Shown piece after piece: positions 22,406-33,729 of a stretch of 64,000 nucleotides of DNA. This stretch comes from Flavisolibacter nicotianae (GTDB lineage Bacteria > Bacteroidota > Bacteroidia > Chitinophagales > Chitinophagaceae): NCBI RefSeq assembly GCF_003628535.1, contig NZ_RBCI01000001.1, forward strand, positions 868,001 through 932,000, read 5' to 3'. Position 1 is the first letter of the stretch. Each line of letters begins with the position of its first letter. A model generated the notes under the pieces. It searched no databases and was not told the origin of the DNA. It was given only the letters and a program-made list of their open reading frames with translations. Position numbers and translations under genes: made by a program.

Positions 22406-24538
22406 TTAATAGAAATTGCTGCGGTAATCTTTGATGTCGGCTTTTTTCTGCAGTACTTCCACCGGTGAGCGGAACATCTGGCGACTTTGCATTTCCAGCA
22501 TCTGGCGCTGTTGTGCAATGCCGGCGTTGTCAACAGCAGCCGTGAAGACGGCATCCGTGCGGATGGCGTAGACACCTGCCTGGCCGGCAATTCCTTCAGC
22601 ACAAACCTTGCCTTTGTTGGCCGGGTTAAAAATGGCACCCAGCACTTTGTTTTCGTATCCCAGGGCACCACCGCCGGTGAAATGAAGACTGTCGGCACGC
22701 TGCACCTGTTGGTTGAACTTCGTCGCCACCACATTCAGGTCGGTAACAGTCCCCATTTGCTGTTTGATCATGTCGGCTTTCTTCTTGTTGCGCAGCACCG
22801 GCTCAAGCATTTGGCGAACCGAAGAAGCAGAAGGCAGGCCGGCCTTGTTTACGTCGGTTACCACGGCCACGATATAGCTGTTGTTGATCGGCTGGCTGGG
22901 GCTTACCACGTCGCCTTTGTCGGCTTTGAACACATCTTTCACCAGTTCACGGGCCGAACCGTTGACACCTGTAACAAAAAAGTCCATCGGGTGCAGGTTG
23001 CTGGCCACCTGCTTCTGGTAACCTTTTGCCTTCAGGTTCTTTTCAAAATAGTCGTTGAAGCTCTTTTCGTCTTTTACGTTTCCGGCAAACATGTTGGCTT
23101 CATTGCTGGCCTGGCTTTGCGTTTCGGAGCTCGCCTCGATCGGCAGGGCAAACAAAGCCAGTTTATACACAGGGGATGAACCTTTTTGCGAAAGCACTTC
23201 TATATAATGGTAACCAAACTGGGTTTTTACCACACCTTTTGCGCCAACAGGGTTGTTGAAGGCAAAATCCTTGAACTCCGGAACAAACTGTGTTTGACGG
23301 GTAATGCTGTCGTACACACCGCCGCGGAATTTGCTGCCTGCATCATCGGAGAGTTTTACAGCGATGCTGTCGAAGCTGGCGCCGGCGGCAATGATCCGCT
23401 GCACGCTATCGGCGATGCGCTTGGCCGTTACCGAGTCACGGGCGGCGCCTGGCTGCCCAGCAGCATCCTGCGGGTTCAGGGCAATCAGGATGTGCCGCAC
23501 TTTTACCGTATCCGGCTGTGTTTTCTTGTCCATGATTCGTGTGAGCAACATTGCATCCTGCTCGACCAGCGGCCCGGTAACCACGCCAACGGGTGCTTTA
23601 AAGATCGAGTCCTTGCCTTGGATGTTCAGGTCTTTATCCGAAACATAGGTCTCGTTGTATTGCGCCAGGCTGCGGTTGGCCACCAGGAACTGCTGCACAT
23701 TGCCGGTGCGCTGGAACGAGTCTTTCAGGGAAAGAAGCTGGTTGCGAACGGCAGCGCTGTCGGCGGCAGAAGGAGCGGCGCTGAACGATACATAATTAAA
23801 GGAACGGCTTTCTTCTTTTTGGTCGAAGTCTTTTTGGTGGGCCTTGATGTAGTCGGTGATATCCGCATCCGTCACTTTTACAGCACTGTCGGAAATGGTG
23901 GTGTAGGGCACAGAAACGTACGCTGCATTTGCCACCTGGCTGTTATCCACATTACGTTTTTCCAGGAACCATTTTGGAATATAAACAGAGTTTGTCAGCA
24001 ACGCATTGTATTTATTGAGCAGGGTTTGCTTTTCGATATAGTCGATCAGTTCGGCCAATTGAGCCTTTTGCTCAGGCGTACCACTTTTTTTGATTTGGTT
24101 GTATTGCTGGCGCACCTGGCCCGGGTCCCATGCCTGCGGATCTTGCGGGTTACCAAAAGCCTGGCGAAACTCCTGCGGGGGATTCGGTCCAAACAGCAAC
24201 TGGTCCAATTCCTTGTCGCTGATAGAAATGCCCAACTCATCATATTGATCGCCCATGATCTTGTCGGTCAACTCCTGTTGCCACAATCCGTTAACGGCTT
24301 GTGCGGTTCCGTTTTCGCCTTCAAAACCCTGGCGCTTGGTGATCTCCGACACACGGCGCATAAACGCTTCGGCATCGACCTTTTTCCCATTAATCTTTCC
24401 CATGGTGGTTTCCCTGCCGCCGAACATGCGGCCGCGACCTGCGAAGGCGTCCATTAAGATGAACCCTAGCAAGGCCAGCGCAATGGCGATTACCGCAATG
24501 CGGGCATACTTGTCTCTGATTTGCTGAATAACTGACAT
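22406..24538 (-). CDS. PpiD-like periplasmic peptidyl-prolyl isomerase/foldase
   Basis: A 710-residue membrane-anchored chaperone of the SurA/PpiD type. A short cytoplasmic start (SVIQQIRDKYARI) is followed by one transmembrane helix (about 12-32), a SurA-N-like helical region, a parvulin-type rotamase domain (about 340-450: VKVRHILIAL, ASFDSIAVKLSDDAGSKFRG, FGYHYIEVLS) and a long C-terminal helical part with a partial second parvulin-like section. It should help fold exported outer-membrane proteins at the periplasmic face. In Bacteroidota this protein is usually encoded alone, as here. A promoter with DnaA-box-like sequences lies just upstream (24567-24596). Confidence 0.93.
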   Translation of the reverse strand: MSVIQQIRDKYARIAVIAIALALLGFILMDAFAGRGRMFGGRETTMGKINGKKVDAEAFMRRVSEITKRQGFEGENGTAQAVNGLWQQELTDKIMGDQYDELGISISDKELDQLLFGPNPPQEFRQAFGNPQDPQAWDPGQVRQQYNQIKKSGTPEQKAQLAELIDYIEKQTLLNKYNALLTNSVYIPKWFLEKRNVDNSQVANAAYVSVPYTTISDSAVKVTDADITDYIKAHQKDFDQKEESRSFNYVSFSAAPSAADSAAVRNQLLSLKDSFQRTGNVQQFLVANRSLAQYNETYVSDKDLNIQGKDSIFKAPVGVVTGPLVEQDAMLLTRIMDKKTQPDTVKVRHILIALNPQDAAGQPGAARDSVTAKRIADSVQRIIAAGASFDSIAVKLSDDAGSKFRGGVYDSITRQTQFVPEFKDFAFNNPVGAKGVVKTQFGYHYIEVLSQKGSSPVYKLALFALPIEASSETQSQASNEANMFAGNVKDEKSFNDYFEKNLKAKGYQKQVASNLHPMDFFVTGVNGSARELVKDVFKADKGDVVSPSQPINNSYIVAVVTDVNKAGLPSASSVRQMLEPVLRNKKKADMIKQQMGTVTDLNVVATKFNQQVQRADSLHFTGGGALGYENKVLGAIFNPANKGKVCAEGIAGQAGVYAIRTDAVFTAAVDNAGIAQQRQMLEMQSRQMFRSPVEVLQKKADIKDYRSNFY

Positions 24539-24566
24539 AAATGGTGGTGTTCTTATTTAAGGATGG

Positions 24567-24596
24567 CGAAAATAGGGTAAAAGGAATTATACACAA
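24567..24596 (-). promoter_or_regulatory. promoter of the ppiD-like gene
   Basis: On the minus strand TTG (24596-24594), a 19-bp spacer, then TATTTTCG (24574-24567), one base off TAnnTTTG. A TTATACACA box overlaps its -33 end. Confidence 0.55.
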
Positions 24597-25107
24597 AATG
24601 TGGAAAACCGCTCTGAAGCAGAGTTTTCGACGGATCCGGCAAAGAAAAAGCTAATGCGTGTTTATGGCTTGCCGGCTGCCTGGAAAGATGTGCATGTACT
24701 GGTGGAATTTTTCGTGAACAGTAGCAACCGGATATCAATTCCGAAATTTCAAAAACGCATTTTGCAAATTCTTCCATCCGGTATCTATATATAGTAACAG
24801 GTCATTCGTACAGCTTTTCCGGCTCCGGCGTTCTCCGACTCAGGATTGCCATACGGGGTCACACAAACGGCATTTTTGGTGTGTATATCCCCCATTTGAT
24901 GTGAATAACTGTGGCTTTACCGTGAAAGGACTGGTGTACTCTTGGCTCACAAGTTTGTCTGGCGACGGAGGGTTTCCGGTTTTTGTTCATTAACCCTGTT
25001 TTATCCCACGCCTATTCACATCACCGAAAAAACGAATAGAGCGGAAATCTTTTCAATTTGAGTAATCCACATTTTTGTGAATATCCCCTGTAATCCGCAA
25101 GTGGTCC

Positions 25108-25115
25108 TACCTTTG
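25108..25115 (+). promoter_or_regulatory. -7 promoter element for nadA
   Basis: TACCTTTG matches TAnnTTTG. It would give nadA a leader of about 135 nt. No ideal -33 TTG is seen. Confidence 0.45.
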
Positions 25116-25256
25116 TTGTGCGTGGAACAGGAAAAGCTGTGGATAACTGTATATTAAGTGCAGCGGCTACAAAGTGAACCAGGCTCTTTCCCCAAATTCA
25201 CACCCATAATAATAGTAGCTTCTCTTTATAAAAATAAAAAGATTATTAATTATTAC

Positions 25257-26264
25257 ATGAGCGAAGAAATGTTGATAGCGAAAAAAGAAATAGAGGAAAA
25301 AGGGTTTTTGGACGTGGACATAGACCCGACGCTGGACCTCTTTGCCGAGATCGAACGGCTCAAGAAAGAAAAGAACGCCATCATCCTGGCGCACCTGTAC
25401 CAGGAACCCGATATACAGGACATAGCCGACTATGTTGGCGACAGCCTGGGACTTGCCCAACAGGCGGCAAAGACCAATGCCGATATGATCGTATTTGCCG
25501 GCGTGCACTTCATGGCCGAAACAGCCAAGATCCTTAACCCAACCAAAAAAGTGGTGATCCCCGACCTGAAGGCCGGCTGTTCCCTGAGCGAGAGTTGTCC
25601 GCCACCCCTCTTTAAACGCTTTAAAGAGCAGCATCCTGACCACGTCGTGATTTCCTATATCAATTGCAGCGCCGGGATCAAAGCCCTCACAGATGTCATC
25701 TGTACGTCCTCTAATGCGAAAGCAATTGTGGAGAGCTTCCCCCCGGAGCAGCCGATCATCTTTGCACCCGATAAAAACCTGGGTGGTTGGATCAACCGCA
25801 CCACCGGCCGGAACATGCTCCTGTGGAATGGTGCCTGCATGGTGCACGAGATTTTCAGCCTGGAGAAACTGACAAAGTTGAAAGTGCGTCACCCGCAGGC
25901 AAAAGTGATTGCCCATCCCGAATGTGAAGAACCGGTGTTGCGGATAGCCGATTTCATTGGGTCTACCACGCAGTTGTTAAGCTATACCCGGAACAGTCCC
26001 GACAAAGAATTCATCGTGGTCACCGAAGCCGGCATTCTCCACCAGATGGTCAAACAGTCGCCGGACAAAACCTTTATCCCGGCACCACCCGATAATGCCT
26101 GCGCCTGCAACGATTGCCCGCATATGAAGCGGAACACCCTGGAAAAGGTTTACCTGTGCATGGAATATGAGCAGCCGGAGGTGGTCATGGAGGAAGAATT
26201 GCGGGTGCAGGCGAAAAAGAGTCTGGATCGCATGCTGGAGATCAGCGCAAGGATTGGCTTGTAA
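25257..26264 (+). CDS. nadA: quinolinate synthase
   Basis: 335 residues from the ATG at 25257; in-frame codons further up lie in the AT-rich leader. NadA condenses iminoaspartate with dihydroxyacetone phosphate to quinolinate in de novo NAD synthesis and uses one oxygen-sensitive 4Fe-4S cluster. The three cluster cysteines are visible in KAGCSLSE (C108), NGACMVHE (C194) and NDCPHMK (about C287). Other signatures are [60 protein letters not shown] and [10 protein letters not shown]. The gene is complete and probably functional. nadB and nadC are not in the window; nadD is about 6 kb downstream. Confidence 0.97.
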
Positions 26265-33246: not shown

Positions 33247-33711
33247 ATGAAAAAGGCAGGCGATAAAATAAAGTTCCATTTCCTGGTCGATAAGTTCTAT
33301 TTCCCGGACAGAGGCCTGTTGAAGGCATATCTTGAAAAGCAGCTAAAAGGGGAGGGGAAAAAAATAGACGCAATCAATTATGTCTTTTGTGATGATGCGT
33401 ACTTGCTGCAGATGAACCAGCAATATTTGCTGCATGATACCTTAACCGACATTATCACCTTTGAACTTTCTCCCAAAGGACAGGCATTGGTTTCTGATAT
33501 CTATATCAGTATAGAAAGGGTAAGAGAAAACGCCACGAATTTCGCCACGCCTTTTGCTGCCGAGTTATTACGCGTTGTATTTCATGGTATTCTGCATCTG
33601 GCAGGGTATAAAGACAAGAAGCCGGAGGACAGCCGGAAAATGCGGGAAATGGAGGATGTTTATTTAAGAAAGTTTCACGTGGAACGTGAAACGAAAAAAC
33701 GGAAAGATTAA
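33247..33711 (+). CDS. ybeY: endoribonuclease YbeY (rRNA maturation factor)
   Basis: A 154-residue zinc-dependent RNase needed for 16S rRNA 3' maturation and ribosome quality control. It has INYVFCDDAYLLQMNQQYL, HDTLTDIITF and the metal motif HGILHLAGYKDK. H113 and H117 match the first two zinc ligands. The third ligand, His in E. coli YbeY, is D123 here, a substitution common in Bacteroidota homologues as far as I recall. The last 13 codons contain a parS-like palindrome (33671-33686), which is read as KFHVERET. The gene lies 38 bp upstream of mnmG on the same strand. Confidence 0.95.
   Translation: MKKAGDKIKFHFLVDKFYFPDRGLLKAYLEKQLKGEGKKIDAINYVFCDDAYLLQMNQQYLLHDTLTDIITFELSPKGQALVSDIYISIERVRENATNFATPFAAELLRVVFHGILHLAGYKDKKPEDSRKMREMEDVYLRKFHVERETKKRKD
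33671..33686. other. parS-like palindrome 1, within the end of ybeY
   Basis: AGTTTCACGTGGAACG shares 14 of 16 positions with the bacterial parS family (TGTTTCACGTGGAACA-type); only the two end bases differ. ParB binds such sites near replication origins. Confidence 0.55.
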
Positions 33712-33713
33712 CA

Positions 33714-33729
33714 TGTTCCCCGTGGAACA
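33714..33729. other. parS-like palindrome 2, ybeY-mnmG gap
   Basis: TGTTCCCCGTGGAACA matches TGTTCCACGTGGAACA at 15 of 16 positions. It lies 27 bp after palindrome 1 and just upstream of the mnmG promoter element, so ParB binding could also affect mnmG. Confidence 0.55.

Follow-up and report, generated by a model that had tools for sequence, protein, structure and literature searches.

A predicted chromosomal replication origin with a BUS-like module beside nadA in a Chitinophagaceae bacterium near Flavisolibacter

In the oriC (incC)/BUS of Bacillus subtilis, tandem DnaA boxes face a short spacer that is followed by opposite-strand triplets with a central A and then by AT-rich DNA, and further boxes lie upstream in either direction, as described in the available text of two reports (PMC8287927, PMC6669920). 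The accessible part of the latter states that the upstream boxes functioned in either orientation and hundreds of bp off, and that the box pair adjacent to the trios had to retain its orientation (PMC6669920). The oriC of Escherichia coli lies apart from dnaA, according to the excerpted text of PMC8287927. The origins in Ori-Finder and DoriC are assigned from skew, box clusters and neighbouring genes, judging from the available sections of PMC10225481 and PMC6323995. The locus analysed here shares the box, triplet and AT-rich layout and the upstream boxes in either direction with the origin of Bacillus subtilis, and the separation from dnaA with that of Escherichia coli; the types of evidence are the same as for the catalogued origins.

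The window, the whole stretch of DNA that was analysed, comprises 64 kb (C1:868001-932000) of the genome G000 (6.09 Mb, 70 contigs), and the studied spacer is its positions 24539-25256 (718 bp). Among named proteins, the NadA encoded in the window was closest to the one of Flavisolibacter longurius, at 93% identity. A first-pass annotation had proposed the spacer as a candidate oriC between divergent genes; the divergence was confirmed, and the origin reading was supported by skew, box conservation, complete relatives, rRNA direction and parS. Neither of the two outcomes that it had named as refuting the origin, a distant skew minimum or a lack of box conservation, was observed. Judging from sequence, the ppi-nadA spacer is very likely the chromosomal oriC of this Chitinophagaceae bacterium near Flavisolibacter. 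The spacer, its flanking genes and its boxes are as follows.

24539-25256, no strand: candidate oriC spacer between divergent ppi and nadA, from the box cluster, conservation and gene calls
22406-24538, minus strand: ppi, SurA/PpiC-type peptidyl-prolyl isomerase, left flank of the spacer
25257-26264, plus strand: nadA, quinolinate synthase, right flank of the spacer
24587-24595, plus strand: DnaA box TTATACACA, paired with and facing the box at 24599; conserved in several congeners
24599-24607, minus strand: DnaA box TTTTCCACA, facing partner of the box at 24587; shared by most congeners and by some other genera of the family
24900-24908, minus strand: DnaA box TTATTCACA; many congeners have a box about 350-380 bp ahead of nadA
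25063-25071, plus strand: one-mismatch DnaA box TAATCCACA, from the mismatch scan
25138-25146, minus strand: DnaA box TTATCCACA, perfect consensus; many congeners have a box about 113-119 bp ahead of nadA

The four exact matches to TTWTNCACA previously reported in the spacer were found at 24587(+), 24599(-), 24900(-) and 25138(-), and a recount of the one-mismatch boxes gave five (24760, 24880, 25012, 25063 and 25076) instead of the four claimed. A first-order Markov model of the spacer predicted a mean of 0.126 exact matches and none of 20,000 simulations reached four, in agreement with the earlier expectation of far fewer than one; the reversed control motif did not occur in the spacer. The spacer was the top 718-bp cluster of exact boxes within the window, the runner-up having two. 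When one-mismatch boxes were included, the spacer had nine against up to eight in other 718-bp stretches of the window, so that the one-mismatch counts are weak evidence. Among the matches listed for G000 (first 100 places), a rival cluster of three TTATCCACA at C6:107382-107790 was rejected, as the boxes are spaced by multiples of 102 bp in repeated coding-like sequence and look like protein repeats; this locus (L046, C6:107382-107798) is a decoy cluster for box-counting programs. The genome-wide matches listed also included two adjacent boxes at C13:427598 and 427608 (L047).

The first-pass annotation had suggested conservation of the boxes in relatives as a check. nadA was detected in 44 of the 58 genomes searched, and 30 of those loci were used as the relative-spacer set, in which 84 exact matches were found against four for the reversed motif. 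At least one exact box was present upstream of nadA in 28 of these 30 spacers, and G018 and G036 had none in the examined stretch upstream of nadA. A set of 80 named loci, three of them too short, left 77 upstream regions of up to 1 kb, in which the boxes numbered 173 and the reversed motif 15. The box cluster is thus conserved beyond chance. A divergent isomerase gene was found within 4 kb of nadA in 70 of the 77 named loci, the gap being 1.9-3.2 kb in 15 of these 70. The plasmid collection gave 11 records, in which every match was annotated as nadA.

Downstream of the exact boxes, positions 25186-25256 contain a tandem pair of weak DnaA boxes and, beyond a short spacer, four triplets resembling DnaA-trios, followed by an AT-rich tract. 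The AT-rich tract adjoining the boxes had already been noted and is indeed present, while the triplet module at 25186-25218 had been overlooked.

25186-25194, plus strand: upstream box CTTTCCCCA of the BUS-like module, weak (three mismatches); TTATCCAC or TTATCCCC in many relatives
25194-25202, plus strand: downstream box AAATTCACA of the BUS-like module, weak (three mismatches)
25206-25217, minus strand: four DnaA-trio-like triplets, 3'-TAT TAT TAT CAT-5', after a 3-bp CCC spacer; geometry compared with that in the available text of PMC8287927
25217-25256, no strand: AT-rich tract, proposed unwinding element, 34 of 40 bases A/T

Only 25 of the 63,961 40-bp segments reached 34/40 A/T, and at the level of composition the tract has the character of an AT-rich predicted unwinding element adjoining the boxes. 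In the oriC of Escherichia coli the box adjoining the unwinding element points towards it, as in the window. Plus-strand triplets (TAA/TAG), an alternative reading in the opposite direction, were discarded: the trios described in the literature extend from the box in the 3' to 5' sense, which the minus-strand triplets fit. The published BUS rules, in the accessible part of PMC8287927, call for a DnaA box with three or more 3'-NAN-5' triplets no further than 16 bp away and for at most two mismatches to TTATCCACA in the better box of the pair. The window has four triplets located 3 bp after AAATTCACA, if AAATTCACA is taken as a box, and its box pair shows three and three mismatches to TTATCCACA. 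Since the window boxes miss the strict rule, the module is described as one that would work like a BUS and is not filed as a BUS. Among relatives, 28 named loci carried the module in its strict form, and 27 of these had at least one box with no more than two mismatches.

Conservation within the spacer was strongest in this BUS-like module, rather than in any box of the first-pass annotation. The module consensus, TTATCCnC-nAATYCACA-nCCn-TAATARTARTAG, lies about 65-215 bp before nadA, and the triplets read 3'-GAT TAT CAT TAT-5' in many relatives and 3'-TAT TAT TAT CAT-5' in the window. A simple trio pattern matched 25 of the 30 relative spacers, and the module is also present in L067, lost through the pattern length. 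Scoring of the 77 named upstream regions gave seven or fewer mismatches in 75 and three or fewer in 42, the best reversed control having eight; this score is partly circular, because the set that gave the pattern shares at least one genome with the named loci (G014 = L188, by coordinates). No module was found in L247 in the named-locus scoring, and in L259 it fits only with one extra base. The strict form (CACA-N3-four triplets) was found in 28 of the 48 named loci with flanks of about 10 kb, a full-flank subset also used for parS and flank skew. The isomerase-nadA gap, usually 0.5-0.8 kb, was about 2.7-3.2 kb in L192-L194, L196-L201, L203, L209, L214, L219 and L220. At such wide-gap loci there is an insertion between the isomerase gene and nadA, and the BUS-like module is still near nadA.

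In the own genome of the window, the module pattern gave one match and the control none. A search of 395 genomes of the phylum with the pattern only gave 10 matching genomes, all of the family, and the match was beside nadA in 10/10. As nadA was not used to find these matches, their neighbours form an independent test, with the reservation that three of the 10 genomes (G000, G003 and G024) were also in the set that gave the pattern; the association with nadA in the 77 named loci is not independent because those loci were selected via nadA. The 395 genomes included 14 of the family, four of which showed no module match at the strict stringency; outside Chitinophagaceae the strict pattern had no match in this set. 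A relaxed module core was found in three of 119 genomes of the class, two of them of the window's genus. The third was a single match in another family of the class (L274, G479 C86:4539-4560).

The cumulative GC-skew minimum had been named as a further check. The contig C1 was sampled as twenty 20-kb stretches, after which its last 391 kb (715-1106 kb) were read continuously. The minimum of this gap-free reading was at 888,381, approximately 4 kb from the boxes at 892,587-893,146, within a basin spanning 884-896 kb. Skew was negative in 15 of the 17 stretches sampled to the left of the window, those at 330 and 440 kb being the exceptions, and positive in all three to its right. The local bias of the left flank is uninformative, in agreement with the earlier remark that it gave no clear support. 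Three complete relative genomes (G003, G015 and G034) were used for skew, dnaA and rRNA, with 20 sampled stretches each, a coarse sampling in G003. The skew sign switches at or near nadA and switches back about half a genome away in all three; the stretches with the wrong sign were at +710 kb (clear) and -190 kb (barely) in G003, at -10 kb (barely) in G015, and at +1.55 and +2.35 Mb in G034, where the skew is less clean far from nadA. By a finer reading, the local minimum was 10 kb from nadA in G034 and 78 kb from it in G015 (C1:3728453, L163), an offset for which a local rearrangement or local gene bias may account. The skew amplitude was low in G000 and G003, not exceeding a few per cent. 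In the full-flank subset, the nadA side had the more positive skew in 45 of the 48 loci.

The absence of dnaA from the window, noted earlier, was confirmed, the gene being 0.83 Mb away on the same contig. In the three complete relatives dnaA is 1.78, 1.87 and 1.94 Mb from nadA, near which the skew switches. The 16S rRNA genes of these relatives point away from nadA in 5/5 cases; that of G000 is located on another contig and is uninformative for direction. The DnaA protein has the stretch GGRDHTTV, which presumably contacts the DnaA box.

The two parS-like sites previously noticed in the window were present, at a distance of 8.4 kb from the spacer and not 8.6 kb.

33671-33686, no strand: parS-like site, two mismatches
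33714-33729, no strand: parS-like site just upstream of mnmG, one mismatch

Both sites (33671-33729) are at the ybeY-mnmG junction, and mnmG is a classic neighbour of the origin in other bacteria. Of the 48 full-flank loci, 35 had parS-like sites with at most one mismatch in their flanks of about 10 kb, as compared with 0, 0, 0 and 1 for four control palindromes; the sites were often grouped, two to six together, some 3-8 kb downstream of the nadA start. At two mismatches genome-wide, neither G000 nor G003 was enriched in the parS pattern over its reversed control, and it is therefore only the clustering that counts. A ParB gene was present in each of the four genomes searched, and in the three complete genomes it lies far from the origin. 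The clustering of parS near the predicted origin and the presence of ParB agree with a ParABS centromere, the sites in the window carrying one or two mismatches.

These findings suggest the following course of initiation. DnaA, encoded 0.83 Mb off, would bind the scattered boxes at 24587-25146 and the weak tandem pair at 25186-25202, from which a DnaA filament would form along the minus-strand triplets (25206-25217), opening the AT-rich tract (25217-25256). Helicases would then load at the opened tract in both directions, and the new origins would be separated by ParB loaded on the parS sites, which lie about 8.4 kb off.

A promoter-like element directed at nadA would read through the module.

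25108-25115, plus strand: TAnnTTTG (TACCTTTG), Bacteroidota-type promoter element, directed at nadA through the BUS-like module

We take TAnnTTTG, which appears in the literature in connection with promoters and Bacteroidetes, to be the -7 promoter element of Bacteroidota. Of 28 module-bearing spacers 22 had it in the 130 bp preceding the module, as did 27 of 44 named loci (reversed element: 0 and 3), its distance from the module being mostly 92-93 bp in the window's genus and 42-43 bp in many others. From this position and direction, a nadA transcript would cross the triplets and the AT-rich tract. The origin of Chitinophagaceae might be fixed beside nadA through such coupling, nadA transcription, and NAD status along with it, helping or hindering the opening, a proposal we regard as rather unlikely.

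The conserved promoter-like element before nadA also suits a different explanation, in which the boxes form a DnaA-regulated promoter region of nadA/ppi and the true origin lies within tens of kb, for example near mnmG and the parS-like sites that adjoin it; the skew, which locates the origin only to about 10 kb here and to 78 kb in G015, is consistent with this. Against it, no other 718-bp stretch of the 64-kb window exceeds two exact boxes, and the spacer holds a trio-like module, unique in the genome and conserved, together with the AT tract. We therefore consider this explanation improbable, at a small chance.

An origin at dnaA, the spacer boxes being a chance or regulatory cluster, might find a hint in the one TTATACACA near dnaA at C1:63426. 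It was rejected on the distance of dnaA from the skew switch at nadA (1.8-1.9 Mb in the three complete relatives) and from the C1 skew minimum (about 830 kb), and is extremely improbable. Equally improbable is that the cluster is not the origin but a datA-like, DnaA-titrating site close to it; the many spread boxes speak for this, and the trio-like module with the AT tract and a skew minimum within about 4 kb speak against it. The ppi-nadA spacer as the origin itself is the preferred reading.

An origin on the nadA side in Chitinophagaceae was not named in the titles and abstract openings of the open-licence PMC papers listed by the searches, and DoriC may already list it. The oriC type itself is known; what is unusual in this very probable oriC is its family-wide fixed address beside nadA, far from dnaA. 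This address would serve as an oriC landmark across the family where dnaA is unusable, and would permit correct genome start points, growth rates from metagenome read depth and replicating vectors for Chitinophagaceae. A compact conserved module with a promoter reading through it would also be suited to testing the BUS mechanism in Bacteroidota.

When compared with the BUS of Bacillus subtilis, the spacer is not beside dnaA, its predicted box pair is weak, and its triplets are mostly TAT/CAT rather than GAT, with which many relatives start. By analogy, its arrangement fits the orientation rules given in the available text of PMC6669920. In contrast to Escherichia coli oriC, the gene context is ppi-nadA, and the boxes are followed by a clear triplet run, while the BUS score of Escherichia coli is relatively weak according to the accessible part of PMC8287927.
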